Positions 8,914-58,911 of a stretch of 64,000 nt of DNA are shown in pieces. Each line of letters opens with the position of its first letter. The stretch's first letter is position 1. Origin of the DNA: Candidatus Magnetocorallium paracelense (GTDB lineage Bacteria; Nitrospirota; Thermodesulfovibrionia; Thermodesulfovibrionales; Magnetobacteriaceae). Position numbers and translations under genes: made by a program. The notes beneath the pieces are model-generated. The model saw nothing but the letters and a program-made list of their open reading frames with translations. It ran no database searches and was not told the origin of the DNA. Location: positions 1 through 64,000 of the forward strand of contig JAREWP010000049.1 of the NCBI GenBank assembly GCA_029001845.1, written 5' to 3'.

Positions 8914-9681
8914 ATGAAAAAGTCCTTTTTAGCAGTATTTACAGCTCTTTTTATGTTGGCGGCCATTTCAGAGGCATCGTCCACCAAAGTGGTCGTAAGA
9001 GCCCTGGCCAAAGACGCCAAGTTTATCGGCGCCTCGATGGGAGGCGCCCTGGTAATTATCAGGAACAGCGAAACAGGTGAAATCCTTTCCAAAGGACTTA
9101 CATCGGGCGGAACAGGTAATACAGATGTTTTAATGAAAACACCAATTAGAAGACATTCATCTGTCACTGATGAAAAAACCGCAAAATTCGAGACTACCAT
9201 CGATATCTCCGAACCGGTTTTAGCAACAATAGAGGTGTCAGGCCCTCAGGGTCACAAGCAGGCATCGATAAAGAGTTCAACCCAGGTTTGGTTAATCCCT
9301 GGTAAGGATATAACAGGAGATGGGATTGTAGTGGAGATGCCGGGATTTGTAGTGGATGTTATGGCGCCACAGGCTCACGACGATACCAATCTCAACGATA
9401 CAGAGGCATCTGTTCAGATAAAGGCCAAGATTGTAATGCTCTGAGGTTGTGCTATAACCCCGGGCGGGTTATGGGACGCCGATCAATATGAGGTTAAAGT
9501 GATTGTTAAACACAATAAAAAAATAATCGGAACATTTCCTCTCTCTTACGCCGGCACAAAGAGCACCTTTAAAGGCGCTTTGAAAGTCTCGGAAAAGGGA
9601 GTCTATGAATTAACTGTTTACGCATACGATCCGGTTACAGGCAATACAGGAGTAGATAAGATAACCCATGTTGTAAAATAA
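8914..9681 (+). CDS. candidate secreted selenoprotein with Sec-Gly-Cys motif, read through UGA at 9442
   Basis: The first part, 176 codons from ATG 8914, has a signal peptide (residues 1-22, MKKSFLAVF to the AISEAS region) and a beta-sandwich-like pattern. It reaches TGA at 9442-9444. The same frame then continues without a break for 78 more codons to TAA 9679-9681, giving 255 residues with selenocysteine at position 177. The junction reads KIVML-U-GC-AITPGGLWDAD, so UGA forms a UxC redox-type pair with Cys179. The downstream part has folded-protein character (YEVKVIV, GTFPLSYAG, YELTVYAYDP). A hairpin starts nine bases after UGA, and selB is in this window. The alternative is a point nonsense mutation of a Cys codon (TGT/TGC to TGA). 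The function is unknown; it is likely a periplasmic or surface redox protein. The ATG has no clear Shine-Dalgarno. Confidence 0.72.
9442..9472 (+). promoter_or_regulatory. candidate bacterial SECIS hairpin at in-frame UGA
   Basis: UGA (9442-9444) is followed by nine bases and then ATAACCC (9454-9460), loop CGGGC (9461-9465) and GGGTTAT (9466-9472), a perfect 7-bp stem. The apical loop starts 17 nt after UGA and contains G residues, within the spacing known for bacterial SECIS elements bound by SelB. Folding energy was not computed. Confidence 0.6.
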
Positions 9682-11775: not shown

Positions 11776-12399
11776 ATGAAATACAAAATAACCAATAACA
11801 TAGGAATCGATGTTTCCTCGGTACTACTCCTTTTTGCCCTCTCTCTGTTGCTAAGCGCCTGTACTCTGGCCAAGGTGCAGGTAGATGTTGTAAGCGAACG
11901 TACGGCTCTTGAAAATCAGGTGCTCGGATCTTACAACGCCATAGACAGAGAGATGCTTCTTACTGCATCTGTGAGGGGTGTGGATTCAAAGGGCGAAATC
12001 AGGAAACCGCCTCAGAGGAGTCCCGAACAGAAGGACGCCATGATGGCCATGCGCACACTCTCCTTTCATGAAGACGATACAGAAGCATTTAAACGTCTCG
12101 GCTGGGCAGGAGAAAATATGAATGGCCTGCTCACAACCTTTCCTGTTGTCAAATCCGCTGCACCGGACGATTTAAAAGATTTTGCAGAAGGTTATTCTGA
12201 AGAAGAATTTAATGAAGTCATCAGACAGGTCAATGAGGCCAGGATGGTTGTTATGCAGAGGGTGATCGATGTAAACGAAGAGTTCTCTGACAGCGACCTT
12301 CCCGAGATTCAGAGAGTATTCGGTAAAATTAACAGAGAAAAGGCCTTACCTGGTGAAAAAATTCAAAATGAAGACAGCTCATGGATTGTTAAAAAATAG
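11776..12399 (+). CDS. lipoprotein preceding the CHAT protein
   Basis: The 207-residue protein has a lipoprotein signal: a hydrophobic run ending LLLSAC with Cys29 as the likely lipidated residue. After it comes a region (VVSERTALENQVLGSYN) and then an acidic, helical remainder without enzyme motifs. The C-terminal 47 bp overlap the start of the giant CHAT gene in another frame, suggesting translational coupling and a joint function at the envelope. I associate the VSERTALENQVLG block with small lipoproteins beside TPR/CHAT genes but cannot name the family with certainty. No Shine-Dalgarno is clear before the ATG. Confidence 0.6.
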   Translation: MKYKITNNIGIDVSSVLLLFALSLLLSACTLAKVQVDVVSERTALENQVLGSYNAIDREMLLTASVRGVDSKGEIRKPPQRSPEQKDAMMAMRTLSFHEDDTEAFKRLGWAGENMNGLLTTFPVVKSAAPDDLKDFAEGYSEEEFNEVIRQVNEARMVVMQRVIDVNEEFSDSDLPEIQRVFGKINREKALPGEKIQNEDSSWIVKK

Positions 12400-15300
12400 A
12401 CCCCTCTGTTTTGCGCCTATTTTGGTTGTCTTTTTTTTTCTGACAATTGCAGAAACCATAGGGGCTGAAATCAGCAGGGCGGAACTTACCGAACCTCGAG
12501 CACTTCCTGTTAACACACCCCTCCGGATTACATCGGAAAGCGATTCCATATTGTACTCCGATATTTCCACTGACGGGAAAAAACTTATTTATACAAAACA
12601 GAGCGAAGGCTCTCTCGATCTGTGGATTCGTTCAGCCGACCCTTCTGTTATAATTCTCCCCGAAAAAGTGACATCGGACCGATCGGACGAGTTTTATCCC
12701 GTCATCTCTCCTGACGGTGCATCCATTGCCTATGTCGGTACGGCCCATGACTCAAAGGGCGATATCTATCTCCTTGACATAACCAATAAATACAGCGATC
12801 CCCTGCGCCTCACCGGAAGAGAGACCATGGACAGCGCGCCCGCCTTTTCACCGGACGGGAAGACGTTGTTCTTTCATCGATCCGCTTCCGCCGGCGAGAG
12901 ACCACATATCGTATCGCTCGATCTTACACAGGAAGGGAGAAAACCTGTCATAATCGATACAGGCGGAGACGCATCCTTTCCTTCTCCATCGCCTGACGGC
13001 AAAAAAATCGCCTTTGTTTCATTCAGAGATGACAACAGGGGAGATATATTAATCTTTGAACCGGAAAAAGACGACGTACGATTCGCAACCAGAGGGTCTG
13101 CCGCAGATATCTATCCTGCCTGGTCAAATGATGGTGAGTACATATATTTTTCCCGTTTTACAATCGACACAAACGGAGACGGCACTGTCGATGGCAACGA
13201 CAATGCCGCCATTTATCGCATAAAGAGCAATTTGGAGAACCGACGCGCCTACCCCGTTACATCTCACAACTACTCGTCCATTCATCCTAGAGCAACCTTG
13301 GGAAAGCTCTATTTCCTGTCAAACAGTAACGGAGTTTATAACATGAGCCTCCTCCCTGCGGAAGGAGAGATTCCCCTTCTCGACAGCGCTTCCCGTCAGT
13401 ATGCACTGGCAAAGGAGATTTCAGGACGGATACCTGTTAACCCTTTCCTTACGATCACGGCTTTCTCCAAGGTAATGGAGTCTTTTCCCCAAGACAAGAC
13501 CTTTTCTGCAAAATCAGCATATCTGACAGGAACACTCTATCTGAAAACAGGTATACCCGACCAGGCGGAAACTTCCTTTCAGACAGTTGTAAATCAATAT
13601 GGAGAGGTCATGCCCGAGGGAGCATTGGCCAGGCTGGAACTGTCTTTGATTTCTATTAAAGAGGCCCTTTCCAAAAAGACAGAGGCCGACAAAAGAATGA
13701 ATATCCTTGAAAGGGGTATAACCGAATTAGATGAATTAGGCAAATCCTTTCCCGCCATCAAGGCCCGAACCCTTGTGGAAGTGGCGGGACTTTATATGAA
13801 TTACGGCAAGGGAGTATCATCCATCATAAAGGCCATAGATATTCTGGACAGAGTGATCGAGGCCTTTCCGGAAAATAGGAAAGAAACCGCCGATGCAATG
13901 CTGCTCAGGGCCAGGGCTTATGCAAGGACAGGCAGACCATCGGGCGTCTACCCTGCCTATCTTGCAGTAATCGATAACTACCCTGACTTGCAGGAACAGA
14001 GTGTCGCCGCCCTATCGGGGATTCTGAACATTTCAATGGCGGATTTCGACGCTGCCAACTTCGACGATAAAATAATGGCGCTGAGAAGGATAGACGAAGA
14101 GAACTCCAAAACAAGGCCGCGATTGTCGGCCGCCGCTCTTAACAGGATCGGCGATCTATACTACGAAGCTGACGAATGGGCCCGGGCCAAGTCTGCATTC
14201 AGAGAAGTAATGAAAAGATTTTCAGGGGACGATTACAGCAAAGCGGCAGCCGCTCTGGCCCTTGCGGAAATACTCTATATGGAAGAGAGGTTTCGTCAGG
14301 CGATCGACCTCTATGAAAGGGAATTAAAAATAAGACCTGAGGAAGATCGTATTTACAGACTTGCGCGACAGGGATATATCAGGAAATCCATTGAAGGGGG
14401 CGAACGTTTTTACAGATTCGGAGAGGTTGCATCTGCAAGAAAAATATTTAAAGAACTGATGGATTATGACAACTCCATCGTAGAGGCTCACAGAGGGTAT
14501 ATAAAGTGCGCCGTTGCTCAGGGCGAAGCAGATAAAGTGCTTGTCGGTTACAGGTCAAAGCTTGCCGAATCCCCAAACGACCCCGTTGTTCTTTATGCAA
14601 CGGCCCTGAGTCTTACCTATACGGGCAACAGGGAATCTCTGATCGAGTCAGGAGAGATGCTCGTCCGCGCCATAAAGGCTCAGGGGAGAATCGAATACTT
14701 TCACCAAACCTATGGTTATGTACTGGAAGTACTCGAGACCGTCTACAAAGAGCCCGGGAATATCGAAAAATCTCTGGAAGCTTATAAAAAAGCGTATTTC
14801 CTCAATGACCACAAAGCCAATCCGTTAAACGCGGCAAACCTTCTTTTAAACATAGGAAACGGATATTACCTCCTCGGCAGGTACGTAACTGCCCTGGAAT
14901 ACTATAAAAAACGGTTGGGAACAGGAGTGGCCTTTGAAGAGAGGGAGAGAGAAATAATATTTTACAGAAGATTCGGCGCCTCTGCCTTTCAGGCGCGCCA
15001 ACCCGATACCGCAATAAAGGGATATGAAAAGGCCATCTCTCTGATCAGAGAATCCATGGACCCGACAAGAGTGTCGGAGAGCTTTGACACTCTCATGATC
15101 TATATAAGGGAGAATGTATTGGGGCCTCTCGTGTCCAATGCAGAATACGATGAAGACATTGCCGACATTTCGGAGAGAGAATCCCATATAAATAAGAGAC
15201 TCTTTCACCTCAATAGCATGAAGATTCATAAGATTCCGGGCTCTCCGTGGGATAGCTACAAAGAGGGGATCGAGGATCTGTTATCGGAACAGGAAGTAAT

Positions 15301-18300
15301 TACCGAGGATCTTTTATCCCTTTATGAACGTAACGGCCGTCAGGTGATTCCTGTCTATGAGGCAAAACGTACAATTACCTTTCTTTCGTCAAAGGTAATC
15401 GAAGCTCTTAACGACCCGGAGCGTCTTGTCATTCTCGAGGCCGAGATGACGGACAGACTGGGTCTGGCCTATCAGGAAGCCGGTAATTGGGCCAAGGCAA
15501 TGGAAGCATTTGAAAAGGCTTATAAACTAAACAAAAGGCTTGCACTGAATTACAATCTTGCCGGGAACATGCGATCCTCCGCTTACAACGCCTATATGTT
15601 GGCTGGAACCATGTGGGGCGACAAAAGAAGGGAGATGCTGAACAGGGCGGGTGAAGGTTTTTCCGAGGTAATCGATCTTGCCAATAAATTCGGTACAGCA
15701 GGGAGGAAAGAGAAGGATACCGGCAAAGGCAGTGCTCTTATAAACATCAGACTCGGCCTTTCCCTTGACGAAGTCGGTTCCACAAAAGCGGCTTACGGAT
15801 TCGACGAAGATCAGGAAATCAGACTGGCGGAAACATTTATCGCCAAAATAAAGAGCGAACTGGGAAGGCACGGAGAGGCCCTCGATACAGTGAGGGTTCA
15901 ACTGGCCGATTACCCTTCTGACAAGCCCGTCAGGCCGGCGGACCTCTATGGTGTATCCCTGCTCTATCACAGGGCGGGTCATCTCTCGGTGTCGGAGGGC
16001 GACCTTTTACAGGCCTTTCAATATTATAAAGAATCGGCTGATATCTCTTTCACAATGAAAAATTCGATAAGTCTTATTATGAATGTTACAAATATGGCTC
16101 GCCTTCTTTCTCTCTTCCCGCCGGATCACCGGAATATGGAGAAATTCATTACAATCGTAAGGGAGACAGACAAAAAGACCTCTGCTCTTCTAGATGCCGA
16201 TCCCGTACCAATGGCGCCCTTTTTTCACAATACAATGGGCGTTCATTACAGCAAAATTGCCGATTCCATCGACTCTTCAAGTATGCGAGCGAAAGTCCTG
16301 GCCATGAATGCTCTTCATGCGGCTGTTTCTCACTTTGACAGGGGACTTGAATACTTTACGGAAACAGACAGTCGGAAAGAGACAGCCTTTAAAGCAACAC
16401 TATCTCTGAATATGGCGAATACAGCCCGACTACTGGGAGAAGCGGGCCAAGAGAGAATCTGGCTGAACAAGGCCCTCTCCCTGGCTGAGGAGGGAATACT
16501 GCCCGATCTTAAATGGAGAGCTCTGGTAAAGCTGGGCAGATTCGATGACGCTTTGGATATTCTTGAGAGCGTAACTCTGTTAAGGGCCGGATGTTCTCAG
16601 GGAGAAATCCTCTCTTTATTCAGCGGACTGGTTAACGAGATTCTCGACGAAAGCGGGTATGAAGACGCCTTTAATATGATTGAACAACTCTCGGAATTGG
16701 AAAGAGTGCATGCACTCCTGCCTTTCATAATGGGAGAAATATCCGAAAACGAACTCCTATTATATAAAAAGATATATCCCCATATTGTAAAGATCAAAGA
16801 GATTAAAGAGAGGATATCTTCTGCAGACTCAGGGCAAGTTGAATTTTTAAAAAGAAGATTAGGCAATGAAGAAGAAATCCTGACCCTGAAAACAGGCCCC
16901 GCCGGAGAGAACCTGAGATTCCTTAATACCTTAACCGATGAGAGAGAAATACAGGATCCCATGATAACTCTCATCGCACTTGCTCTTGAAGCCGAAGACA
17001 GAGCCGAGCGGATTGTCAGAGAGGATGTTCCGGAAAAAAGGGAAACCCTTGTCAATGAATACATTGCTGTTATGAAACAATACAACGAGGCCGTGAATAA
17101 TCTCAGATCGGAAAACGGAGAAAAACCTCACTGGACGACTCCGACTTTCAGACCGGAGCCTGTAGAACTTATCGATATAATCGAGACAATCGAGGACAAC
17201 GATGTTGTTGCAAGAATTTTTGATATCTCCGACAAAAAACGCCTTCTCTTTACATTAACTCCCGATGGGGTGACTTTTAACATTTATTCACACCTGGAGG
17301 AGCCGGATATTCCCCAAGAGGGGAAAGTATATATTATTAATGAAAATCCTTTGAAATTTCACAGGCCCGGGGATTTTGCATATGCATTCAGCGCAACCCA
17401 TCTCTACAGATCCCTTAACGCTCGCAAACCCTTTAAAAATTCTCTTGTCGCCTTCTCGACAGCCCCTGTAGGGCTTGAGGGCTACAGAGTAACTGCCATT
17501 GCAGGAGATGCAGGTCTGAAGAAAATCAAAGAGTCTTTGACTGACTCCGACACCTTCCTTATGCAGGGCGATATAGGGATGTTTTACAGAGTACCTGCAA
17601 GGCCCGGAGAGATTATGAGGAGATATCCCGGAGTAGATACCGGCGATGAAGTAATCCCTCTGACTTCTCTCATGGATTCTCTCTCTTCCCAATCGCTCAC
17701 CCTTCTTTTGAAACCGAATTTAAAAGACCCCTATATTACAGGGCATCTCTTATCGATTGCAGGCTGTCCCACGATACTCTTCCCTGTTAAGGGACGTAGG
17801 GATTCTGCTTTTCCCGGAACTTTTCTTACGAAATATCTCTCATCATCGGCATCGGAAACTCTTACCATCACTGAAAGAGAGAGCGGAGAGGAGTGGATGC
17901 TGCTCGGATACAGGGGCATGACTCCCGAAGAGTCTGTTGAATATGCAGGCCGAAGGTTTTCTTTATATAGTAAGGAAGGCCAAAGGAATTTTAAAGCAGG
18001 TGAGTATAGAGACGCTCTCTACAATTTTGAAAAAGCAGCGACAACGGCGGGAGAGATAGAGAAGTTACGCAAATATCTTCCAGTCCTTTATGAGTATGCA
18101 AGAGAATGCGCCGCAAGAATCGATGATTACGGGAAATCAGCCCGCTATGCCTCTCTCCTTGTGAGAGAACTGGAAAAGAGCAGGCCTGACAGTGAAAAAC
18201 ACGCAGATGCGCTTCTCAGGCTGGGAATCATTCTGGCCAAAACCGATAAATACGGAGAGGCCATTCCTCGTCTTGAGGAGTCCCTTGAAATCATGGCAAA

Positions 18301-20794
18301 CCTCGAGCTGGAAGAGAACCAGGTAAAGGCATTGATGAATACGGGAATTATTCTTGAAAACGCAGTCGAATATGACACAGCCATGAACCGATTCAGAGCT
18401 GCCGCAGATTTGAGCGAAAGTCTGGATTTGAGGGAATTACTGGCTATGCAGCATATGAACCTCGGCCGAATAAAGGATCTTCGTTTAAGTGACTTCGCAG
18501 GTGCAAAGATTCATTATCGTAAGGCCCTGGAGATTTATAAAAGTCTCGAAAATACGAAAGATCGATCTCAGGCCCTTTTAGACATTGGCCGATGCTATCG
18601 CTTTCTCGGTAACTTCAAAGAAGCTGAATCCCATTATGCAAAGGCAATGGAACTGATAGGCGACAATGAAGCCGCTTTACTGTTTACAGCCAAAATAACG
18701 ATGGAGAGAGCGAATAATGCATGGTTTCAGGGAAGGTATCAGGAAGCATTCGAGCTTCAAAGAGAGGTGCTTCATATCGCAGAGCAGAAAGATTCGTCTG
18801 TTCTAAAAACCATGGCTCTCAATACATCGGGTCTGATCTGGTGGACATTGGGAGACAATGACAAAGCTCTTGACGACCTGTCAAAGGCCCTTTCCACAGC
18901 TCGGGACCTTGAATCCGGCAGTCATGAGATATCCACAACGTACAACAATACAGGCCTCATTTACAGAGAGACCGGAGATTATGAAAAAGCTCTCCACTAC
19001 TTTGACAAGGCCCTTGAAATTGACAAGAGGCTCAAGTCCAAGTGGGCCATTGCCTATGACCTGAGAAACAAAGGACTTACCCTGCTGAGGGCCGGAATGG
19101 CGGAACAGGCCCTCCCGCTGTTCGAAGAAGCCCTTGCCATTACTCGTGAAACAGGAAATCGAATAAACGAGGCAAAGACACTCACAGGTTTGGCCGAAAC
19201 CTTGAAGATTCTCGGTAACGATACTCGCGCCCTGGATATCTGTGATAAAGCTCTCGATCTTTCTCTTTCCATGTCACTGAGAGATACTGCCTGGCGAGCA
19301 CTCCTGGGAAAGGCCGAAATATTTATAAAAAGAGGCCGCACCAAAGAGGCCGCCCGTATTTTGCGTCGGGCCATGGGAATTATTGAAGAGATGCGGGCCG
19401 ATATCAGTGTAAACAAGCTGAGAGACGGATTCTTAAACAACAAGTTGATCGTTTACGAAACTCTGATTTCACTCCTTGTAAATGAGGGAGATATTGGCGG
19501 CGCCTTCGATATTTCCGAACGCTCCAGAGCCAGAAACTTTATCGATCTCCTTGGAAATCATCGTCTCGATCTTCACAACAAGCACGAGGGAGAGCTCTAT
19601 GACAGGCAGATAAACCTGAGGGCCGTGATAAGGGAGTATGAAGAACTCATCGCTTCTTCTTCAGATGATCCGGCGATCACCGTATACAAAAAAGAGCTTA
19701 CAAATCTTTATAAAGACTACAGAGACCTGATGCTCGAAATCGAGATAAAAAATCCCGAACTCTCTGCTCTTGTGTCCGTAAACCCGCCAGGTTATAATGA
19801 AATCCAGGGATTAATGGAACCGCAAACAGCCCTTATTTCATATTATCTTCTCCCTGAGGAGGTGTTGATATGGTTATTACGGGATAAGAGTATTGACCTC
19901 TTCAGGGTCCCTGTCGATCGCGAGGCCCTTGCCGGCGAAATTCTGGACTACAGGCGTATGACGCAAAATCTCGAACCTGTAAGGACCACATCGCAGTCCC
20001 TTTACAAGCTCCTTATAGAACCTGTAGAGGAAAAGCTGAACAGAACAGAGTATCTGGCCATAACACCCCACGGATTCCTGCATTATCTCTCATTCGCCAC
20101 ACTTTATGACGGGAACCGATATCTTCTGGAAAAGTATCCTCTCTTCTACCTCCCCGGCGCCGGCATGCTCGAATATTCCATTAACAAGAGAAAAAAAGAG
20201 AAAAACACCAATGTGCTGGCCATTGGAAACCCCGACTTGGGAGACCCTGCCCTTGATCTTCCCTTTTCAGAATATGAAGTGGGCAGTATTAAGTGGAATT
20301 TCGATAACATAACCATATTGACAGGAGAGAGGGCCACAGAGGGGGATGTAAAGAAAAATATCAGTGAATTCGGTGTCATACACCTGGCTTCTCACGGAGA
20401 GTTCAATAGTGTAAATCCGCTCTTTTCCGCTATCAAACTGGCAGGAGACAGGGAAACGGACGGAGACCTGGAAGCGGAAGAAGTTTTCGGGCTCCATATC
20501 GACGCGGATATTGTGCTGTTAAGCGCCTGTCAGACAGGACTGGGAAAGGTGACAAAGGGCGACGATGTCATCGGTCTGAACAGAGCGTTCTTCTATGCCG
20601 GCGCTCACGCTGTAATATCGAGTCTCTGGAGAGTAAGCGATGTATCCACCGCCCTTCTTGTCAAGCAGTTTTACAGACAATATCGGACAAAAAACAAAGC
20701 CCTGTCACTGAGAAGCGCAGCCCTTCACGTAAAAAACAGGTACCCCCACCCCGGATACTGGGGCGCCTTTGTCCTCTCCGGTGACTATTACTGA
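12353..20794 (+). CDS. giant TolB-type propeller-TPR-CHAT protease-like protein
   Basis: The frame of 2813 codons opens with GTG at 12353; ATG 12368 is the alternative and gives a cleaner signal peptide (PILVVFFFLTIAETIGAE). Residues about 55-340 hold at least five PD40/TolB-like propeller blades (SPDG or similar with IAYV/LFFH). Long TPR arrays cover about 360-1580 and 1880-2370. Residues about 1600-1860 look like a decayed CHAT domain with no catalytic pair. The C-terminal 370 residues are a full CHAT domain, a caspase-like peptidase fold, with the His2681 (HLASHGE) and Cys2726 (LSACQTG) dyad intact and the typical end AVISSLWRVSD. Export is predicted, so it likely acts in the periplasm or at the surface with the preceding lipoprotein. 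The substrate is unknown. Confidence 0.88.
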   Translation: MKKFKMKTAHGLLKNRPLCFAPILVVFFFLTIAETIGAEISRAELTEPRALPVNTPLRITSESDSILYSDISTDGKKLIYTKQSEGSLDLWIRSADPSVIILPEKVTSDRSDEFYPVISPDGASIAYVGTAHDSKGDIYLLDITNKYSDPLRLTGRETMDSAPAFSPDGKTLFFHRSASAGERPHIVSLDLTQEGRKPVIIDTGGDASFPSPSPDGKKIAFVSFRDDNRGDILIFEPEKDDVRFATRGSAADIYPAWSNDGEYIYFSRFTIDTNGDGTVDGNDNAAIYRIKSNLENRRAYPVTSHNYSSIHPRATLGKLYFLSNSNGVYNMSLLPAEGEIPLLDSASRQYALAKEISGRIPVNPFLTITAFSKVMESFPQDKTFSAKSAYLTGTLYLKTGIPDQAETSFQTVVNQYGEVMPEGALARLELSLISIKEALSKKTEADKRMNILERGITELDELGKSFPAIKARTLVEVAGLYMNYGKGVSSIIKAIDILDRVIEAFPENRKETADAMLLRARAYARTGRPSGVYPAYLAVIDNYPDLQEQSVAALSGILNISMADFDAANFDDKIMALRRIDEENSKTRPRLSAAALNRIGDLYYEADEWARAKSAFREVMKRFSGDDYSKAAAALALAEILYMEERFRQAIDLYERELKIRPEEDRIYRLARQGYIRKSIEGGERFYRFGEVASARKIFKELMDYDNSIVEAHRGYIKCAVAQGEADKVLVGYRSKLAESPNDPVVLYATALSLTYTGNRESLIESGEMLVRAIKAQGRIEYFHQTYGYVLEVLETVYKEPGNIEKSLEAYKKAYFLNDHKANPLNAANLLLNIGNGYYLLGRYVTALEYYKKRLGTGVAFEEREREIIFYRRFGASAFQARQPDTAIKGYEKAISLIRESMDPTRVSESFDTLMIYIRENVLGPLVSNAEYDEDIADISERESHINKRLFHLNSMKIHKIPGSPWDSYKEGIEDLLSEQEVITEDLLSLYERNGRQVIPVYEAKRTITFLSSKVIEALNDPERLVILEAEMTDRLGLAYQEAGNWAKAMEAFEKAYKLNKRLALNYNLAGNMRSSAYNAYMLAGTMWGDKRREMLNRAGEGFSEVIDLANKFGTAGRKEKDTGKGSALINIRLGLSLDEVGSTKAAYGFDEDQEIRLAETFIAKIKSELGRHGEALDTVRVQLADYPSDKPVRPADLYGVSLLYHRAGHLSVSEGDLLQAFQYYKESADISFTMKNSISLIMNVTNMARLLSLFPPDHRNMEKFITIVRETDKKTSALLDADPVPMAPFFHNTMGVHYSKIADSIDSSSMRAKVLAMNALHAAVSHFDRGLEYFTETDSRKETAFKATLSLNMANTARLLGEAGQERIWLNKALSLAEEGILPDLKWRALVKLGRFDDALDILESVTLLRAGCSQGEILSLFSGLVNEILDESGYEDAFNMIEQLSELERVHALLPFIMGEISENELLLYKKIYPHIVKIKEIKERISSADSGQVEFLKRRLGNEEEILTLKTGPAGENLRFLNTLTDEREIQDPMITLIALALEAEDRAERIVREDVPEKRETLVNEYIAVMKQYNEAVNNLRSENGEKPHWTTPTFRPEPVELIDIIETIEDNDVVARIFDISDKKRLLFTLTPDGVTFNIYSHLEEPDIPQEGKVYIINENPLKFHRPGDFAYAFSATHLYRSLNARKPFKNSLVAFSTAPVGLEGYRVTAIAGDAGLKKIKESLTDSDTFLMQGDIGMFYRVPARPGEIMRRYPGVDTGDEVIPLTSLMDSLSSQSLTLLLKPNLKDPYITGHLLSIAGCPTILFPVKGRRDSAFPGTFLTKYLSSSASETLTITERESGEEWMLLGYRGMTPEESVEYAGRRFSLYSKEGQRNFKAGEYRDALYNFEKAATTAGEIEKLRKYLPVLYEYARECAARIDDYGKSARYASLLVRELEKSRPDSEKHADALLRLGIILAKTDKYGEAIPRLEESLEIMANLELEENQVKALMNTGIILENAVEYDTAMNRFRAAADLSESLDLRELLAMQHMNLGRIKDLRLSDFAGAKIHYRKALEIYKSLENTKDRSQALLDIGRCYRFLGNFKEAESHYAKAMELIGDNEAALLFTAKITMERANNAWFQGRYQEAFELQREVLHIAEQKDSSVLKTMALNTSGLIWWTLGDNDKALDDLSKALSTARDLESGSHEISTTYNNTGLIYRETGDYEKALHYFDKALEIDKRLKSKWAIAYDLRNKGLTLLRAGMAEQALPLFEEALAITRETGNRINEAKTLTGLAETLKILGNDTRALDICDKALDLSLSMSLRDTAWRALLGKAEIFIKRGRTKEAARILRRAMGIIEEMRADISVNKLRDGFLNNKLIVYETLISLLVNEGDIGGAFDISERSRARNFIDLLGNHRLDLHNKHEGELYDRQINLRAVIREYEELIASSSDDPAITVYKKELTNLYKDYRDLMLEIEIKNPELSALVSVNPPGYNEIQGLMEPQTALISYYLLPEEVLIWLLRDKSIDLFRVPVDREALAGEILDYRRMTQNLEPVRTTSQSLYKLLIEPVEEKLNRTEYLAITPHGFLHYLSFATLYDGNRYLLEKYPLFYLPGAGMLEYSINKRKKEKNTNVLAIGNPDLGDPALDLPFSEYEVGSIKWNFDNITILTGERATEGDVKKNISEFGVIHLASHGEFNSVNPLFSAIKLAGDRETDGDLEAEEVFGLHIDADIVLLSACQTGLGKVTKGDDVIGLNRAFFYAGAHAVISSLWRVSDVSTALLVKQFYRQYRTKNKALSLRSAALHVKNRYPHPGYWGAFVLSGDYY

Positions 20795-23962: not shown

Positions 23963-25108
23963 ATGTCAAAAATAAAGAATTTCTTATATAAACCAATAAC
24001 AGTTCCTGTAATAATTAGCTGTTTTTTAATTTTAGCAGGATGTGTTTTTCCACTAAGGATTAATAATGCTATAAATACTGATGATTATTTAGAGAAACTC
24101 TCTTTATTTACTCATTACCTTAATCAACTTCCAAACCTGAAAAGCACTATAGAGTCACAGATATTATTCTTAAATACTTTATCTGGCTATGCTGAATCAA
24201 AAAACAAAATTATCGATAAGCAGAGAAAAGAATTTTGCAAATCACTAAATGCAATAACCTTAATGTCTGATTACTTAAAGTCGGACAATTCTACAGTTAC
24301 TTTTCAAAATCTTAAAGACAAACAGCTAAGGGACATTCAATGCCCTGGTTATATACCCAATGATTCAATTAGGGAATCTGTGAGTAAATTAAAAAAAGAT
24401 AAAGAAGATATTGAAAAAATAGCAGCCGGAAATTTTTTTCTTTCCTTTTTAACAAATATGATTCTTATTTTAGCAGGAATCGTTGGCCTTTTTTTAACCC
24501 TATATTGGCAAATGAAGGAGAGAAGAAAATATCATATAAACAATGAAATAAAGCTTCAGGAAATAAGAGATAATATAAACTCTACCATCTTTAATGACAT
24601 AACAAAACGTTATTGTTTTGATAAAAATGAAAGAGAAAATTTAATTAGCGGATTCAATCAACTTAAAGAATATTTGTATGAGAATAAGCTGCAAACAGAT
24701 AGTTGGCAGTCAATAATTCATGAAATTGATCGTCTCAAGGTATTTGTCAGTAAATTAAATAAAACTATTGAGGAACTAGATGCCTTATTGTTAAGCACAA
24801 AAAGACCCTCTAAGACAGAGTTAACATGTAAAGACAATGTTAGTATAATTAAAGGTCACTTGGAAAACATTAATAAAATTCTTATAATTATTGATTCAAA
24901 AAGGCCTAAGTATCGCATATTAGGCTTCAATGAAAGTAACAGTACAATAAATGATAGATTAAGATCTTTGCATAATATCCGTAGCATAGGCGACATAAAC
25001 AAAGATAAGAATCAACTTATAGCCGAAGAAATAAGGAAGCTTATTAAAGCTATACATGAAAATGATTCTATAATAGGTTCTACAATAAAGGAAGCAGAAG
25101 AAACATGA
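23963..25108 (+). CDS. island gene 1: membrane-anchored coiled-coil protein
   Basis: ATG 23963 is chosen because TTAGGAGGATATTAG precedes it; a longer frame from 23843 has no ribosome site. The 381-residue protein has an N-terminal hydrophobic segment ending LILAGC, which could be either a lipobox or a membrane anchor, a helical stretch of about 120 residues with a few cysteines, a clear membrane helix (FLTNMILILAGIVGLFLTLY), and a long lysine/glutamate-rich helical tail likely to form coiled coils. Its stop overlaps the start of the NTPase gene by four bases (ATGA), so the two are translationally coupled. The family is not recognised. The DNA is much more AT-rich than the flanking housekeeping genes. 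Confidence 0.7.
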   Translation: MSKIKNFLYKPITVPVIISCFLILAGCVFPLRINNAINTDDYLEKLSLFTHYLNQLPNLKSTIESQILFLNTLSGYAESKNKIIDKQRKEFCKSLNAITLMSDYLKSDNSTVTFQNLKDKQLRDIQCPGYIPNDSIRESVSKLKKDKEDIEKIAAGNFFLSFLTNMILILAGIVGLFLTLYWQMKERRKYHINNEIKLQEIRDNINSTIFNDITKRYCFDKNERENLISGFNQLKEYLYENKLQTDSWQSIIHEIDRLKVFVSKLNKTIEELDALLLSTKRPSKTELTCKDNVSIIKGHLENINKILIIIDSKRPKYRILGFNESNSTINDRLRSLHNIRSIGDINKDKNQLIAEEIRKLIKAIHENDSIIGSTIKEAEET

Positions 25109-28100
25109 GAGACCAAACACAAAAAAACCAAACCTCAGAATTCTCTTCAAAGATAAAAAATATCTTTATCGAGCTTCATGGTTATTCTTATTTTCACAGT
25201 CCCTCCGAGATCAGTAAAGTAGATGACAGGTTCATTGGGAGAGATAGGATTATTAAGAAGTTGAAATCTCTCCTTACGAATAACGAGACCAAGACCGGTT
25301 CATATCTTATTACAGGCTTCAGAGGGATGGGAAAGACAAGCTTTGTCAGCAAAGTACTTTCAGAGGTCAGCACCGAGCAGACCGAGTCGATCACTTACGC
25401 AAGATACTTTAGGATCCTTTTCTTTCTCATGGTGATTGGGATTCTGGATATTTATGGAAGTGAATTCTTTCTTTTACTGATTATACCCGCCATATTAAGC
25501 GCTGTTGCATTGATATATCTTATAGCCACTGATACAAAAAGAAATAATTTGGGATTATCAAAAAAACCGGGCATTTTTATTAATTACCTGAAAGCTTGGC
25601 TAAGAACCCTGATTATTGAAAAGTCGGAAGCACCGGTCACTACTATGAGGGTATTTATTCATGACTTCTATCTCCTGTCCGGCATCCAGGTATTATCCCT
25701 ATTAACGTTTTCTGTTTTTGAAGTAGAGAGAATTTCCGTTAGGTTTACAATATATATAATATTCTATGTGGGCATGATAATTCAAAGCAATTTCTGGATT
25801 AGATTGAGAAAGGACAAAGATTTATCGGCTGTCAGAGCAATATTCAAAAGTTTCTGGGAGACGATTAAAAGAAATGCAAATTATTCTCAACGTATTTATA
25901 TTAAGGTAAATTTCGGTCACGATAACCTGAGGGAAGTCGACATTTTAAAACTTATCGCCAGAAACATGAAATCCAGATATAACGAAATCATGGTCAAATT
26001 TTCCTTTTATTCTTTTATGAGGAGATTTGCCAGAATCATTGTAATCATATTCTTTGTAGGTATAATTTACTACTACGAACCATTATACACGAATCTCAAC
26101 TTTGGAATAAGAATTGACAGCGGCATTATACACTATTTTCCAACACAGGGGATCCCGTTGCTTAATAATAAGGAGACTTTTAATGATTTAATCCTAAGCG
26201 ATGACTTTAAAAAGGGAGAGTTTACTCTGAACAACATAGGGAAATTGTATGAAGGTATAATCGAACCAAAGAACCCGGACTTGTTTAATTTGGAAAGCAG
26301 TTCTTTTGTTTTTTCTAATGACCATTATATAAGGCAAACGATTCAAAGAGTAACTGTTTACTTCGATCTGTTTATTTATATTATCTATAAACAGCTTATT
26401 AAAAATATCTTTTGGCCTATCAATGAATTTCAGAGATCTGAACACAATCAGTTTAATAAATTCATTGGTCTTGGAATCAATATCTCCGAAACTTTCAAAT
26501 TTATACCTGACAGTCTGGATTATGCTTTTATTTCTTTTTGTATTTTGATATGGCTTTTTTCGAGACTTCTGGCCAGGTATCGTTTCCTTGGCTTAGTTAC
26601 ACACACTTACATAATCAAAAGATTAAAAGAGCTTAACGATATGATAGATTCACAAATATCCATGGAAACAGGCGGCAATATTTCTTCGAAACATGGTCTC
26701 TCATTTAATAAAAAGAAAACTAAGAATTATCCAATTGCCGATATCAGAGAGATCGAGAAGCAGTTAATCGAAATTCTTGAGGAGATCAACAGAATTCCAA
26801 GAATATGGAAGAGAACTGAGTTTATCTTTATATTCGATGAGTTGGATAAAATTGAGCCTCGCAGAAAAATTGACGAAGCTGCCGGAAATGAAAGCGATTC
26901 TAATAAAAACACAGGTGAAGAGAATCTCTATTTTACAATTGAAGGCGCCAGACACAGGCAGCAGACCATCATGAAAATCCTTGGCAATTTGAAACACTTT
27001 CTTACAACAGCAAAGGCAAAATTCATATTTATAGCAGGACCTGAGATGTATGACTTTTCCCTTGCCGACGTGTCTGACAGAGACTTTTTCATAGGCAGCA
27101 TATTTCACGATGTTATTTACGTGAATAGTTTCCTCAAAGATTCTTCAGATTGGAAACTGCCTGATGTAACCAGCTTAACAGAGGCATATGTGTGCCGTTA
27201 TTTGCTACCATCGGAATATCAGACATCAACGGAAATTCAAAAAAATATACTGACATTAAAGACTTATAATAAATATTTAAAAGACAATTTTTTTAACGAC
27301 GAGGATCCGGAACTTACAGATATTGAAAGAGAAATCCTCAAGCAGAAGCGTGAGAAAATAATTTTTTGTCTACAGAATTTTATAACCTATCTTACTTATC
27401 GAAGCAATGGAGCTCCTAAAAAACTAACGACCTATTTTGAATCTTATACTGTTGTTCTACCATCCAGGAAAGAGCTCCTCCAAAAAGATAAGAACCTGAC
27501 AGTCGGGAGAAACAACAGAAGTTTCTACCTCTTTTTCGGCTATTATGATCAATACACATTCGGCATGATAACTCACTTGATAAGTCCTGTCTTTTTTACA
27601 ATAAAGAAGTCTATTAAAGACTTTGGAGACAAACTTCTGGTTTCTACATCCTTTCTGGTAGACCATATTTACAAATTTCATAAACTTGGATTTTCCTGGC
27701 GTAATATTGAAGTGACTCCTGAAATACTTGAAATAAACAAAGCCCCTGCTTTAAGAGAGCTTATAGAAAAAATATTACAAGTACTATCTAATATGCATGT
27801 TCAGAAAATTATAACAGGAATGTATGACTTCAGGTTTGTAAAGAAAATTGTCGAGGAGATGTCTTTTTTATCAAAGATATCAGAAAAGGAAGCAGCAGCA
27901 TTTAATTTTACACTTGACGAATCTCTTGCCTTAAAAAACCATTATAAACAAAAGCTGGATGAGACTACCAAATCCTATAAAGACTTTAAAGACAATATAT
28001 CACCTGATGATTTTATATACTCTGTCAGTTTTATTTATATGATTCAAGGTGATCTGAGTTTCTACGACGAAGAATATAACGATGCCATTATTTCTTATAT

Positions 28101-30342
28101 GGATGCAGTACAAACACTTCGTTCAATAAAGAAGAATAATATGGATTTCAATAAATTCGTCTCATTTATCAGGAATATGCTGAAACTCGGCCTTGTCTAT
28201 GAAAAAAAGAAGTCTCACGCTTCTGCATATGCAACATATACTAAAATTACTGAGGTTATTGCCAATTTTTTATATATAAACGTGGAAGAGGAGAATTTCA
28301 AAATCATAGATTTGAATAAAACCAAACTAAATGGTGAATATAAGAATTACAATAAATTAAGTAAAAATGAAATAAAGAAAGTGCAGGAGTTAGAGGAAGG
28401 CAAAACTTTGCTTGCTGTAACAAGAGAACACGGACAGGGTACGAATCCCATACTTTACGGACTATACCAGAATCTACCCAGAATTTTCGATAGAATTCAT
28501 CCTACCAGAGTGAGAGTGGATTGGCTTTCAAAGAGCTCCATTGCAAAAAGCATTCGTTTTGTTTATCAATCTCTACTTGCAAAACTTCAAATTTTAGAAA
28601 AGGGAAATCTTGGAGGTATAGACTACATTGATGTGAAAAGAACTTTTGAGGAATTTGATTATTTCACATATTTGATTCAGGAAGAGAATGAAAAGTATTT
28701 GATAAAAGCTGAGTTTAACGATAAAGTCGGAGATATTCTTTTTTATAAAAACGGTCTTCTAATGATTACTGACGACGAAGACAATCCACGGAAAAAGGAA
28801 ACTCATTGTATCAAGTCTTCTCCTTTATGCTCGATCAATAGAGATGTCACAAATCGTTTCGGAGATAATGAACTTTTTTCTCCTTGCAGCGCCTGCTATT
28901 ACTATTTTAATAGTTTGAAGACAATGTGTGAGAACTACCTGGAAATCTCACTGAAGGATTATAGAAGTTCTGTTTTACTGAAGATATTTGACAGCCTTTA
29001 TAGTCTGCACAGAAGAGTGTTCATAAACCAAATGGCTGACGCAACAATGACTTTCTCAAATATACTCTCCGACATAGGAGATTCTTTTTTAAGTTGCGCA
29101 ATGAGCGATCATATTACAGAAAAATTTCTCTTAACATTGATATCAATTATTAAGGAGCGAGGATATTTAAGAAAGGGAGAAATGCTCAGTGAGTACATTG
29201 AAAACAACTTCAATGAATTAAATAAAGTCGAAGAAGTCTTTGTTTATTATTATCTTTCTGCTGTTTACTCAGATATAGGCGGAAACAGCAAGGAGTATTC
29301 CTTTCAGTTGTCAAAAATTTTGTATCTTATTAAAGAGTATGTCATAGTGAATGACAGCCGGGAACTTTTAACTGATCGACTTATCGAGGAGCTTGAGAAA
29401 GTAATCTTGAAAATAGCATTACGAGCCATGTATCGTGCATACGATAATGCACACAGACTTGAAATAGGCAAACATGAGGAAATTATTGTTGATGATGAGG
29501 AAAATAAGATTATTGATATGAATGTCACTCTCAGAAATATTTCATTGAGTGCAGAGTTAAAAGAACTTGTACTATTGTTTGATGAAATCGTTCTTTTGAG
29601 CGGAAGGAGAAATGACAAATTCAGCTACAATGTCTATAATTCCATCTCACCATACACAAACATAAACAGCATGTATAACAGAATTATTGAGCTAAGATTT
29701 AAAGTTCAAATTAACTATCTTTTTTTAAAGGAATTAGATTTTCATGAAATAACGGACGAAGAGGGAAAAGAGACTGATCTCAGTGCATTATTTGCAGGAA
29801 AGAAAGGAAGAATTTATGATATTTTCAGTATGGATATCGATGCAAGAAGTGTCTTGGAGTTCCTTATAAGTGATTCCATCTTTTGTCTTTTTGAAGTATT
29901 AAGAATAACAAAGGTCTTTGGCTCCTCCTATCTGATAAGTTATTCCCTAATTGCGGATACACATCAACAGTTTGGTAACTGGTGCAGATACTATTACGGA
30001 TATATAAAAAACAGTAGCATCAACAGGCAAAATCGCCTTCGCAAGTCAGTCGAAAGGCTTATCGGAACAGCTGAAATGCCGGAATTGGCGCCTAAATATC
30101 ACGATGAAATGGCTATTAAGCATTATAAATCTGCAATAGAGACTCACAGCGAAGGTAAGGCCTACAAAAATACAATAGAGAATATGTTTTATCTTATCGA
30201 TGAATACAATGATAATACCTATCACTTTCATGCAGCATTAGAAAGATATCGAATTAATACAGGTTATACGGCAAAACAGATGAAAATGCTAAGAAAAAGA
30301 GCTGTAGGATCATTGTTATACGAGTGGGAAAGATATCTGTAA
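25105..30342 (+). CDS. island gene 2: KAP-like membrane P-loop NTPase, 1745 residues
   Basis: An N-terminal segment leads into Walker A GFRGMGKTS at 71-79. Walker B comes only at about 573-582 (FIFIFDELDKIEP, Asp578). Between them lie hydrophobic segments near 102-117, 120-141, 190-206, 214-228, 309-323 and 470-490. Membrane helices inserted between Walker A and B are the hallmark of the KAP NTPases (Kidins220/PifA), and FDELDK resembles their DDLDR. A sensor-like KFIFIAGPEMYDF follows. The remaining about 1000 residues are helical, with TPR-like parts and a four-cysteine patch near 1234-1265 (CxxxxxxxC, CSAC) that could bind zinc. STAND-type sensing and signalling at the inner membrane is the likely mode (inference). 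It overlaps gene 1 by four bases. Confidence 0.72.
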   Translation: MRDQTQKNQTSEFSSKIKNIFIELHGYSYFHSPSEISKVDDRFIGRDRIIKKLKSLLTNNETKTGSYLITGFRGMGKTSFVSKVLSEVSTEQTESITYARYFRILFFLMVIGILDIYGSEFFLLLIIPAILSAVALIYLIATDTKRNNLGLSKKPGIFINYLKAWLRTLIIEKSEAPVTTMRVFIHDFYLLSGIQVLSLLTFSVFEVERISVRFTIYIIFYVGMIIQSNFWIRLRKDKDLSAVRAIFKSFWETIKRNANYSQRIYIKVNFGHDNLREVDILKLIARNMKSRYNEIMVKFSFYSFMRRFARIIVIIFFVGIIYYYEPLYTNLNFGIRIDSGIIHYFPTQGIPLLNNKETFNDLILSDDFKKGEFTLNNIGKLYEGIIEPKNPDLFNLESSSFVFSNDHYIRQTIQRVTVYFDLFIYIIYKQLIKNIFWPINEFQRSEHNQFNKFIGLGINISETFKFIPDSLDYAFISFCILIWLFSRLLARYRFLGLVTHTYIIKRLKELNDMIDSQISMETGGNISSKHGLSFNKKKTKNYPIADIREIEKQLIEILEEINRIPRIWKRTEFIFIFDELDKIEPRRKIDEAAGNESDSNKNTGEENLYFTIEGARHRQQTIMKILGNLKHFLTTAKAKFIFIAGPEMYDFSLADVSDRDFFIGSIFHDVIYVNSFLKDSSDWKLPDVTSLTEAYVCRYLLPSEYQTSTEIQKNILTLKTYNKYLKDNFFNDEDPELTDIEREILKQKREKIIFCLQNFITYLTYRSNGAPKKLTTYFESYTVVLPSRKELLQKDKNLTVGRNNRSFYLFFGYYDQYTFGMITHLISPVFFTIKKSIKDFGDKLLVSTSFLVDHIYKFHKLGFSWRNIEVTPEILEINKAPALRELIEKILQVLSNMHVQKIITGMYDFRFVKKIVEEMSFLSKISEKEAAAFNFTLDESLALKNHYKQKLDETTKSYKDFKDNISPDDFIYSVSFIYMIQGDLSFYDEEYNDAIISYMDAVQTLRSIKKNNMDFNKFVSFIRNMLKLGLVYEKKKSHASAYATYTKITEVIANFLYINVEEENFKIIDLNKTKLNGEYKNYNKLSKNEIKKVQELEEGKTLLAVTREHGQGTNPILYGLYQNLPRIFDRIHPTRVRVDWLSKSSIAKSIRFVYQSLLAKLQILEKGNLGGIDYIDVKRTFEEFDYFTYLIQEENEKYLIKAEFNDKVGDILFYKNGLLMITDDEDNPRKKETHCIKSSPLCSINRDVTNRFGDNELFSPCSACYYYFNSLKTMCENYLEISLKDYRSSVLLKIFDSLYSLHRRVFINQMADATMTFSNILSDIGDSFLSCAMSDHITEKFLLTLISIIKERGYLRKGEMLSEYIENNFNELNKVEEVFVYYYLSAVYSDIGGNSKEYSFQLSKILYLIKEYVIVNDSRELLTDRLIEELEKVILKIALRAMYRAYDNAHRLEIGKHEEIIVDDEENKIIDMNVTLRNISLSAELKELVLLFDEIVLLSGRRNDKFSYNVYNSISPYTNINSMYNRIIELRFKVQINYLFLKELDFHEITDEEGKETDLSALFAGKKGRIYDIFSMDIDARSVLEFLISDSIFCLFEVLRITKVFGSSYLISYSLIADTHQQFGNWCRYYYGYIKNSSINRQNRLRKSVERLIGTAEMPELAPKYHDEMAIKHYKSAIETHSEGKAYKNTIENMFYLIDEYNDNTYHFHAALERYRINTGYTAKQMKMLRKRAVGSLLYEWERYL

Positions 30343-30462
30343 TGTAACAGTTGAAACGAGAGTCATCATAATAGAGAGTAAAGAGTTGCTTTAATTAATC
30401 CCTGTATGCACTCTCCAAAAGTGAAACTTATCTTACCAACATTTCACAAAAAAGGAGAATTT

Positions 30463-31272
30463 ATGAAAATCATTGTAGATTTTATCATGAGGAGTTGGGC
30501 TTTTATTATAAAAAGAGCAGGTCGCGTTTCCGGTTTTATGCTGGCCATTTATATCACAATGATAGGAATAGATGCATTAGGGGAAATCACTGAACGTCAG
30601 AAAATTATTGAATTTATAAATAATAAAGAAAAATCTTTTATTACTGAAATTTCCACTTTAACAGTACAAACCGGTGAGCATCAAATAATTAATTTATCAG
30701 AAGTGAATGAAATCCAAAACTCCATAGAAATGCTCAAAAAACAAAAGGAGATTTTGACTTTCCTTATCATTCATGGCTCGAATAGTAATAATCAAAATTT
30801 GCAGAATATAATTGAAGCTCTACTGAAACATTCCGACAAACGCCAAGAGAATATCTTATCTAACACTGACAAAAATGAGAGGAAAGAGGCCCCAAACAAG
30901 ATGTCAATATCTCGATTATGGCACTCCTTTTTTATACGTCAAACAATTGATGAGACCAGTAGTGAACTGCTTTTAGTATACTTAATATTATGTGCTTCTG
31001 TATTAGGTGCGCTTGTTGACTCACTTAGAGATGACAACGTATCGGTTTTAGAAACCCTCGTTAATGGTGTTGGAGCCGGTATAATCTGTTTTCTTGCTAT
31101 TAAAAGCGGTACCCTTGACTATACTGCTCTTAGCAATGATTCAATGCAAAATCCATATTTCAATTCTTTTTTAGGCTTTTTAGGTGGTTTTTTCTCAACT
31201 GATGTTTTTAAGTCTTTAAGATCTTTAGCCGGCGCTATTTATAAAAAATTTCAACATAAAAAAGTCGAGTAA
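30463..31272 (+). CDS. island gene 3: membrane protein, unknown
   Basis: ATG 30463 is preceded by AAAAAGGAGAATTT, which decides this start over one 57 bp upstream. The 269-residue protein has an N-terminal membrane helix (GFMLAIYITMIGIDAL), a helical soluble middle with a poly-acidic/basic pattern, and two or three hydrophobic segments near the end (LLLVYLILCASVLGALV, GVGAGIICFLAI, SFLGFLGGFFSTDVF). No catalytic motif is visible. It sits between the KAP-like NTPase and the S1-kinase on the same strand and could be a membrane effector or channel-like partner. That role is inference from topology and neighbours only. Confidence 0.65.
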   Translation: MKIIVDFIMRSWAFIIKRAGRVSGFMLAIYITMIGIDALGEITERQKIIEFINNKEKSFITEISTLTVQTGEHQIINLSEVNEIQNSIEMLKKQKEILTFLIIHGSNSNNQNLQNIIEALLKHSDKRQENILSNTDKNERKEAPNKMSISRLWHSFFIRQTIDETSSELLLVYLILCASVLGALVDSLRDDNVSVLETLVNGVGAGIICFLAIKSGTLDYTALSNDSMQNPYFNSFLGFLGGFFSTDVFKSLRSLAGAIYKKFQHKKVE

Positions 31273-31422
31273 ACATCAGCAAGAAGGTTGTATGGGAGTA
31301 AAGCAATTCTCAGAAAGTCACAATAGGGATTGGCAAAAGCTCTGTCCAATTTTATAGAGCCGAGAAAATCTGTGTATTGTTTTATAGGGATTATACAAAC
31401 TATTACATAGTTTTAAAATTTT

Positions 31423-33738: not shown

Positions 33739-33742
33739 CAAT

Positions 33743-36763: not shown

Positions 36764-36776
36764 AAGGAGAGTAGAT

Positions 36777-37169
36777 ATGTCAGCAAAACTTAAAAGAATC
36801 CTATATGTTGAAGACGATGAAGCCTTTCAAGGGTTGATTTCCAGATTATTAAGAGAGAATAATTATGAAGTTACCATAGTAGGAACTATGAATGAATTTT
36901 CCTCCATTTTCAATGAAGATCAGTACGATCTTATACTTATGGATATAATGCTGCCTAAATCGGAAGGTGAAGCAGATATTCCCGATGGTGGCATTCGACT
37001 TACAGAATCTATTATTGAGCACGGACTTCCTGTTATATTTCTTACTATGTGGAATCCATATGAGTTCGCTGAGAAGATAAAGAATCTTATGGAGCGTGGA
37101 ACTGTTGAGTGCCTCACTAAACCTGTTGATAGAGATGATCTTTTACAAAAAATAGAATATTTATTATAA
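36777..37169 (+). CDS. island gene 6: stand-alone receiver
   Basis: ATG 36777 follows AAAAGGAGAGTAG. The 130-residue single CheY-type receiver has YVEDDEA, phosphoacceptor Asp in LILMDIMLP, Thr in FLTMWN and Lys in LTKPVD. An insert after the phospho-Asp (EGEADIPDGG) lengthens that loop. It is the likely phosphate target of the two upstream kinases (inference from order). There is no output domain. Confidence 0.88.
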   Translation: MSAKLKRILYVEDDEAFQGLISRLLRENNYEVTIVGTMNEFSSIFNEDQYDLILMDIMLPKSEGEADIPDGGIRLTESIIEHGLPVIFLTMWNPYEFAEKIKNLMERGTVECLTKPVDRDDLLQKIEYLL

Positions 37170-37196
37170 AACGAAAGAGGAGATAAAATATCAAAT

Positions 37197-57018: not shown

Positions 57019-58911
57019 TCAGAGAATTTTCCTTTTGTCTCCTACCCTTATGGTGATCCTTTTACTATCCATATATTCAAGAAATGGCAAAGCGTATTTT
57101 CTTGAAGTACCTATCATGTCTCTAAATTCGGCTACCGTTATTTCAGAGTTTGTCTTAGAAAACGCTTTAATCTTGTCGATAATTATGTTATAATGTTCCT
57201 TTAATAAATACAGCGAGTCGTTTATTCTTATTAATGCATCTTCTTTTGCAAGAAGTTTTAAAATATCTTCCATCTCCTTTTCGTTTATTGACAAATTTTT
57301 TGCCAACTCGTTTTTCAAAGGAGGCTGGCATCCTGCCTTATCAAGCGCACTTATCAGTTTTTGCCGAATGACCTTATCGATATCAGTCAAAGCTGCTTTA
57401 AAAGATTTTAAACGGACAATCTCCTTTTCGGTGACAAGTTCATCTATCTCGGACAGGAGATTTATAAAAATTTTTCGATCCAGTCCCTTAAAATGTGTTT
57501 TCAACTCTTCTCTGGTTATTCCGACCCTGACTGGAAAATTTTTGTGAAACTCCTTGACCCTGAGAGTGATATCCGACTTTAGAAAGTCAATAATTGAACT
57601 ACTGAAAAGCATACCCTGAATATCGGCAATCTTTCCTTTTACAGAAAGAGATTCGATTATACCGTGAATTACTTTCAATTCTTCGTTTTTCCAACCTTCT
57701 ATGCTTTTAGCGGTAATTCCCTCAATACCGGCGGCATTGATTTTTTCATAGATCATCTCTTTTAAAGAACCTCTGTTGTATATAACCAGGTCTGAAAGTC
57801 CGTCCTTTTTTCGGCGTCTTTTTGGGGACGGGTCTAGAACGAGACCGCCTCCAATGGTTTCTACAGGAGAAAAACGTCTAATAATAAATCTGTCCCCGCT
57901 CATGGCCACAATCTTTCTGCTTAACCTTAATTGACAATAAGCCCTCTCTCCACCTTTAATCTCCTGTCTGTTTTTTTCCTCCATGTCTAAACCGTATATG
58001 ATAACCCTTGCGGTAGTCTCAGACGTTCCTCCATGAAAATGTATTGTACTTCTGTTTTTTACGGGAGGAGAGTCCTGTAATAAAGAGAGACTTACATCGA
58101 TCTTGTCGGTAACCAAAAATCTTCCTGGCTCTGCAACTATATCTCCTCTTCTAATTTCATCTTTCTCTATGCCCTGTATATTGATTGCAGTTCTCTGACC
58201 TGCTCTTGCACTTTCTTGGGCCATGCCATGACTATGCAGACCTCTCACTTTGCCTTTCAGACCTGAAGGCAATATCTCGATGCTGCTGTCCAGAGAAACA
58301 GCCCCGGCCACTACCGTTCCTGTTACAACCGTACCAAAACCTTTGAGCGAAAAGACCCTGTCAACAGGCAGTCTGAAAAGCCCCCCAACTGTTTTTTCCT
58401 TTACTTTATTTGCCGTGCTTTTGATTTTTTCTCTAAGAACATCGATATTTTCTCCTGTTTTCGATGACACAGGTATAATTTCTGCATTTTCCAGAAAACT
58501 GCCTTTAACAAAATCCTTTGCATCATCCAATGCAAGTTCGAGCCACTCTTCATCAACAAGATCGCTCTTTGTAAGGACAACGATTCCATCCTTTATTCCA
58601 AGCAAATTACATATCGCCAGATGCTCTCTGCTCTGGGGCATGACAGATTCATCGGCTGCTATGGTAAGCAGCACCATATCGATGCCTGCGGCGCCTGCAA
58701 GCATATTTTTCACAAGTCTCTCATGACCGGGAACATCTACTATACCAACGACAAGATCATCGAATTTCAAATCCGCAAAGCCCAAATCTATAGTGATACC
58801 ACGTTCCTTTTCCTCTTTGAGTCTGTCCGGGTCTATGCCTGTTAAAGCCTTTACAAGAGTACTTTTTCCGTGGTCTATATGGCCTGCTGTTCCTAATATA
58901 ATATGACGCAT
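57019..58911 (-). CDS. selB: selenocysteine-specific elongation factor SelB
   Basis: SelB carries Sec-tRNA to UGA codons marked by a SECIS hairpin. The 630 residues have an EF-Tu-like GTPase start ([51 protein letters not shown]), domains II-III, a SelB-type domain IV region, and four C-terminal winged-helix repeats (from about residue 380 to [15 protein letters not shown]) that bind SECIS RNA. The length is usual. selA, selC and selD are not seen in the window. Its presence shows the organism decodes UGA as selenocysteine and supports the candidate at 8914-9681. Confidence 0.97.

Follow-up and report, generated by a model that had tools for sequence, protein, structure and literature searches.

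A probable new selenoprotein family with a U-G-C motif in Nitrospirota and its cysteine-containing relatives

The locus and its in-frame UGA codon

The window analyzed here is a stretch of 64,000 nucleotides from Candidatus Magnetocorallium paracelense. On its forward strand, a single reading frame (8914–9681) opens with an ATG at 8914, closes with a TAA at 9679–9681 and contains only one in-frame TGA, which is preceded by 176 codons. A preliminary description of the locus had proposed that the frame continues in phase for 78 codons beyond this TGA, that the UGA encodes the first residue of a U-G-C pair, and that SelB is encoded in the same window, and all three points are borne out (Table 1). 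The readthrough product has 255 residues and carries a V-M-L-U-G-C-A motif, with M-L-U-G-C at residues 175–179 and hence U177 and C179. No copy of the gene with Cys in place of the UGA was found elsewhere in the source genome. Two other regions of the window stand out by appearance. A gene at 12353–20794 (+) encodes a 2813-residue, TPR-rich, secreted-looking protein whose C-terminal region resembles a CHAT peptidase domain (LASHGEFN, LLSACQTGLG), by appearance only. At 25105–38879 (+), a gene for a 1745-residue P-loop-containing membrane protein precedes sensor-kinase- and response-regulator-like genes, an arrangement that resembles an unusual signaling island.

Table 1 Features of the locus and of the selB gene in the window.
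Feature	Position	Strand	Basis
Predicted selenoprotein gene, 255 codons (UGA 177 read as Sec) then TAA	8914..9681	+	Open frame; homology on both sides of UGA, full-length
Signal-peptide-like N-terminus, residues ~1–20	8914..8973	+	Hydrophobic stretch; helix 2–16 in model
N-terminal domain, transthyretin-like beta-sandwich, residues ~21–143	8974..9342	+	Model pLDDT 91.8; VIA-align Z 8–11
C-terminal Ig-like domain, residues ~144–255, holding U177 and C179	9343..9678	+	pLDDT 95.2, pTM 0.87; Z 10–12 to Ig-like domains
UGA codon, assigned to Sec177	9442..9444	+	Cys in 80/80 relatives (best 80 of 166); TGA at same codon in 19 further sequences
Cys179 codon, partner of Sec177 in U-G-C	9448..9450	+	Invariant, 65/65 aligned members
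SECIS-like hairpin	9452..9474	+	Upper stem 9455–9460 with 9466–9471; apical loop CGGGC 9461–9465; lower pairs extend; silent-site conservation
selB, Sec-specific elongation factor	57019..58911	-	TIGR00475, 363 bits, over cut-off

An in-frame TGA may simply be a real stop, whether the gene is a pseudogene, the TGA arose through a sequencing error or residue 176 is the natural end of the protein. TGA does terminate 9 of the 34 window genes examined, which is compatible with such a reading and also indicates that UGA has not been reassigned wholesale. However, the 78 codons downstream are open and conserved and are needed to complete the second domain, and the homologs described below leave this explanation with almost no credence.

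Relatives with cysteine, selenocysteine or neither

Scanning species-representative genomes yielded 166 stretches that encode relatives, and the best 80 were kept and examined. These 80 come mostly from Bacteroidota, and also from Microbulbifer, Fodinibius and two Nitrospirota MAGs, and they are up to 57% identical to the window protein over nearly its whole length. In every one of these best 80 of 166, positions 177 and 179 are both Cys (CGC), and none of the 80 contains an in-frame stop. Thus, the family does not end at the UGA, which instead occupies the site of an invariant Cys. The preliminary description had suggested looking for homologs with Cys at this position, and they are present throughout this set. 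The Cys-type family from Bacteroidota, Microbulbifer and Fodinibius (L004–L081), which has no name, resembles the window protein in full-length identity (45–57%) and in its invariant CGC motif, and differs in having Cys where the window protein has Sec. Nearly invariant residues of the family include D34, A35, K36, R80, W126, U/C177, G178, C179, G185, W187 and N244.

Homologs were also searched for in 396 genomes of the phylum and in 230 of the class. In 17 other genomes of the class, homologs carry a single in-frame TGA, always at the same codon, giving 19 further sequences and, with the window, 20 Sec-type sequences (19 distinct) from 18 genomes. They span four families of the class (f1, f3, f15 and f21), and one of them, L110, shares just 43% identity with the window protein, so that neither a single error nor a single recent pseudogene can explain the set. 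Five genomes of the class have Cys instead of Sec. Together, the 17 Sec-type and five Cys-type genomes in practice rule out sequencing error, pseudogenization and natural termination. Two MAGs (G444 and G446) have two Sec copies each (L137, L138, L143 and L144), one of which is identical between them, possibly as a result of contamination or of very close strains. No Sec copy outside Nitrospirota was seen among the best 80 of 166 relatives, which leaves Sec forms in further phyla possible.

A tree of 55 proteins requires three changes to account for the distribution of the Sec label, and well-supported branches force at least two of them. The window protein forms its own lineage, and its nearest relatives by path are Cys forms. 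For one Cys form from the window's own family, L106 (G310:C22, near 187848–188564), a grouping with the main Sec clade is strongly supported. After its TGT codon it keeps the SECIS-like nucleotides TTTAACCCCGGGCGGG, with the stem broken. Sec has probably been replaced by Cys here, leaving a SECIS in decay, the direction being inferred; Sec-to-Cys changes are described as rare among bacteria (PMC13188914). The Nitrospira-type relatives, which are more distant (family f29; L112–L130 and further loci), have lost both motif Cys residues (TLSGxxVRPHGDWDSRK) and retain other conserved residues, so that part of the family has a role for which these Cys are not needed.

Selenocysteine machinery and the downstream hairpin

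Conservation across the UGA demands readthrough as such, which leaves room for an amino acid other than Sec, either Cys or Trp, to be inserted through a suppressor tRNA or near-cognate decoding. The aligned residue in the best 80 of 166 relatives, however, is always Cys and never Trp, and Cys is the usual partner of Sec. The source genome also has the machinery for Sec: selA, selB, selC and selD are all present, each over its cut-off, completing the selA/selC/selD search that the preliminary description had proposed. Its SelD contains an in-frame UGA, its formate dehydrogenase has a UGA within the classic UHSP motif, and a hairpin lies downstream of the UGA in both genes. Thus, the source genome uses selenocysteine. 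The two genes are found at G000:C80:8961-9725, - (L177, formate dehydrogenase alpha) and G000:C50:17721-18650 (L091, SelD). With this machinery, two classic Sec genes and the SECIS-like hairpin under RNA-level selection described below, decoding as an amino acid other than Sec is very unlikely. Among the 17 other Sec-type genomes, selA was detected in 14; the three without it are rated 78–91% complete, and one MAG thus lacks a detectable selA despite its Sec-type gene and a completeness of 91%. By comparison, selA is present in 4/5 Cys-type genomes of the class and in 0/5 Nitrospira-type genomes.

Published rules for the bacterial SECIS specify an apical loop of 3–9 nt with a G in its first two positions, located 16–37 nt from the UGA, an upper stem of 4–16 bp, and a minimum free energy of at most -7.5 kcal/mol (PMC13188914). 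The window hairpin has a six-pair upper stem and a predicted energy of -19.0 kcal/mol. Its CGGGC loop begins after 16 nt, such that the first loop base is the 17th nucleotide past the UGA, precisely where the preliminary description had placed it. The fit to the bacterial SECIS model extends beyond the window: all 19 distinct Sec sequences satisfy the loop, spacing and energy rules, and they have in common a hairpin 16–17 nt after the UGA. Across the six pairs of the upper stem, 96.5% of cells are paired, compared with 34–52% when the stem is slid. True covariation is scant because the stem sequence hardly varies; in the diverged L110, the stem is built from other bases, with its register shifted by one.

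Sec copies that agree in an amino acid also use the same codon for it in 44% of cases gene-wide, versus 72–100% at codons +5 to +9. The 12-codon segments that are most conserved in these copies, over the whole gene, are located at the UGA. Compared with synonymous recodings, the stretch has a mean z of -1.8 for Sec copies (-3.7 for the window itself), against an average of -0.1 for four Cys copies. When the window stretch was recoded synonymously 600 times, only 0.3% of the recodings were as stable. The silent-site conservation and the recoding z-scores speak for RNA-level selection on the hairpin. Both the recurrence of TGA at one codon in 20 sequences from 18 genomes and the stability of the fold are far beyond chance.

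By this evidence, the UGA would be decoded as Sec by SelB and tRNA-Sec, and the stem-loop just downstream would direct Sec insertion; both steps are inferred from conservation and machinery, without experiment. The proposal of a candidate new selenoprotein is thus supported by Cys homologs, independent Sec homologs, machinery and hairpin, and none of the outcomes that the preliminary description had listed as refuting it occurred. What that description could not foresee is a Sec family spread across several Nitrospirota families, alongside a far larger Cys-type family in Bacteroidota. The computational case for Sec in the protein is strong, although there is no direct evidence of it.

Novelty, fold and possible function

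Sequence searches against Pfam, NCBIfam and PDB gave no match to the family, and no model of NCBIfam release 20.0 (June 2026) came near its cut-off for the three members compared. A 2026 review lists 119 prokaryotic selenoprotein families and subfamilies (PMC13188914), and the window family is absent from that list, the literature considered being open-access papers. A 2025 deep-Sep study reported nine new families (PMC12013277); those with NCBIfam models do not match the window family. Two entries in Table 1 of the review have a UGC motif, DUF1573 (PF07610) and TlpA-like (cd02966) (PMC13188914). DUF1573 selenoproteins have the same U-G-C spacing as the window protein (PMC13188914), and the source genome's own DUF1573 protein likewise begins with a signal-peptide-like sequence. 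Identity with DUF1573 was rejected, since PF07610 was unmatched in the members scanned up to E 10 or E 1 and hhalign gave a probability of only 0.8% against the source genome's own DUF1573 protein. UGC TlpA-like selenoproteins share the motif and a predicted redox role with the window protein (PMC13188914). They have a thioredoxin fold, in contrast to the two beta-sandwiches modeled here.

Modeled by AlphaFold2 with Cys substituted for Sec, the readthrough product gives a confident structure (mean pLDDT 95.2, pTM 0.87) that consists of a signal helix and two beta-sandwiches. This model is all-beta and lacks the thioredoxin helices, and by it the protein does not belong with the thioredoxin-fold selenoproteins. 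Residue 177 lies between the strands formed by residues 164–175 and 193–200. Fold searches returned only generic Ig-like and transthyretin-like matches, neither of which tells function. The C-terminal domain shares its general fold with Ig-like domains such as the C-terminal domain of sulfite oxidase/dehydrogenase (Z ~10), but the window protein has no catalytic domain, identity is ~13%, and unrelated Ig-like proteins score alike. The N-terminal domain resembles a small subunit found in the hydrazine dehydrogenase complex (Z 9.5, 16% identity).

Within the scope of open-access papers, the species-genome scan (best 80 of 166 relatives) and one phylum, we consider it highly probable that UGA 177 encodes Sec and that the protein represents a new selenoprotein family, a finding of a known kind. 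Almost certainly, one secreted protein with Sec is made from a gene that standard annotation would divide at the UGA. The family was previously not known to use selenium, and its function is not known.

Across 101 loci, no operon is common to the family and no neighbor is conserved family-wide. Lineage-specific neighbors include MarR in nine Flavobacteriia loci, YkuD in eleven, MBL-rhodanese in four and a methionyl-tRNA-synthetase-like gene beside four Nitrospira-type loci. Two further candidate partners, an upstream EF-hand gene (L145/L146) and a DUF4079 gene (L154), were set aside because each is lineage-specific. The MBL-rhodanese gene directly adjoins L024, L047, L051 and L080, a gene for a four-rhodanese protein directly adjoins L011, DsrE and multihaem cytochrome genes directly adjoin L162, and a multihaem cytochrome gene adjoins L161. 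Because rhodanese, DsrE or multihaem cytochrome genes are adjacent in several lineages, a redox or sulfur role is favored; with no family-wide conserved neighbor, support for any function is weak.

By analogy with CXC motifs in general, a U-G-C pair would be able to form a selenenylsulfide. The product is predicted to be secreted, with a signal peptide followed by the modeled transthyretin-like N-terminal and Ig-like C-terminal domains. A loop of the second domain would hold Sec177 and Cys179 as a U-G-C pair, at the site where the Cys-type family has CGC. By inference, this pair may cycle between selenenylsulfide and reduced forms, possibly relaying electrons or sulfane sulfur. A periplasmic selenol/thiol redox or sulfur-relay protein is our tentative, unproven inference. 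It is also conceivable, if somewhat more doubtful, that the selenoprotein does not work as a redox or sulfur relay. Its U-G-C pair would then bind a soft metal (copper, mercury or similar), or the protein would serve a multihaem cytochrome as an adaptor or in its assembly. Such roles would suit a fold that is not thioredoxin-like, the likeness of the N-terminal domain to the hydrazine dehydrogenase subunit, and the multihaem cytochrome c gene adjoining in two Cys-type genomes of the window's family. However, that neighbor is found in only those two genomes, a fold match shows no function, and there are no metal-binding data.

The thioredoxin fold is the fold of most characterized selenoproteins, and the new family lies outside it. 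It is one more selenoprotein family beyond the 119 listed for prokaryotes in 2026 (PMC13188914), and standard gene callers would split or truncate all of its Sec copies. Since its close relatives include Sec forms, Cys forms and forms that lack both, the family is well suited to the study of Sec/Cys exchange. More broadly, and with less than even confidence, we suggest that a widespread, unnamed periplasmic family of two-domain beta-sandwich proteins represents a new, non-thioredoxin kind of selenol/thiol redox or sulfur-relay protein, in which selenium use may have been gained or lost several times in Nitrospirota, with L106 retaining a decaying SECIS. The U/C-G-C motif offers a residue-level active-site hypothesis for a large unannotated family of cultured Bacteroidota, and its function is thus testable by simple knock-outs.
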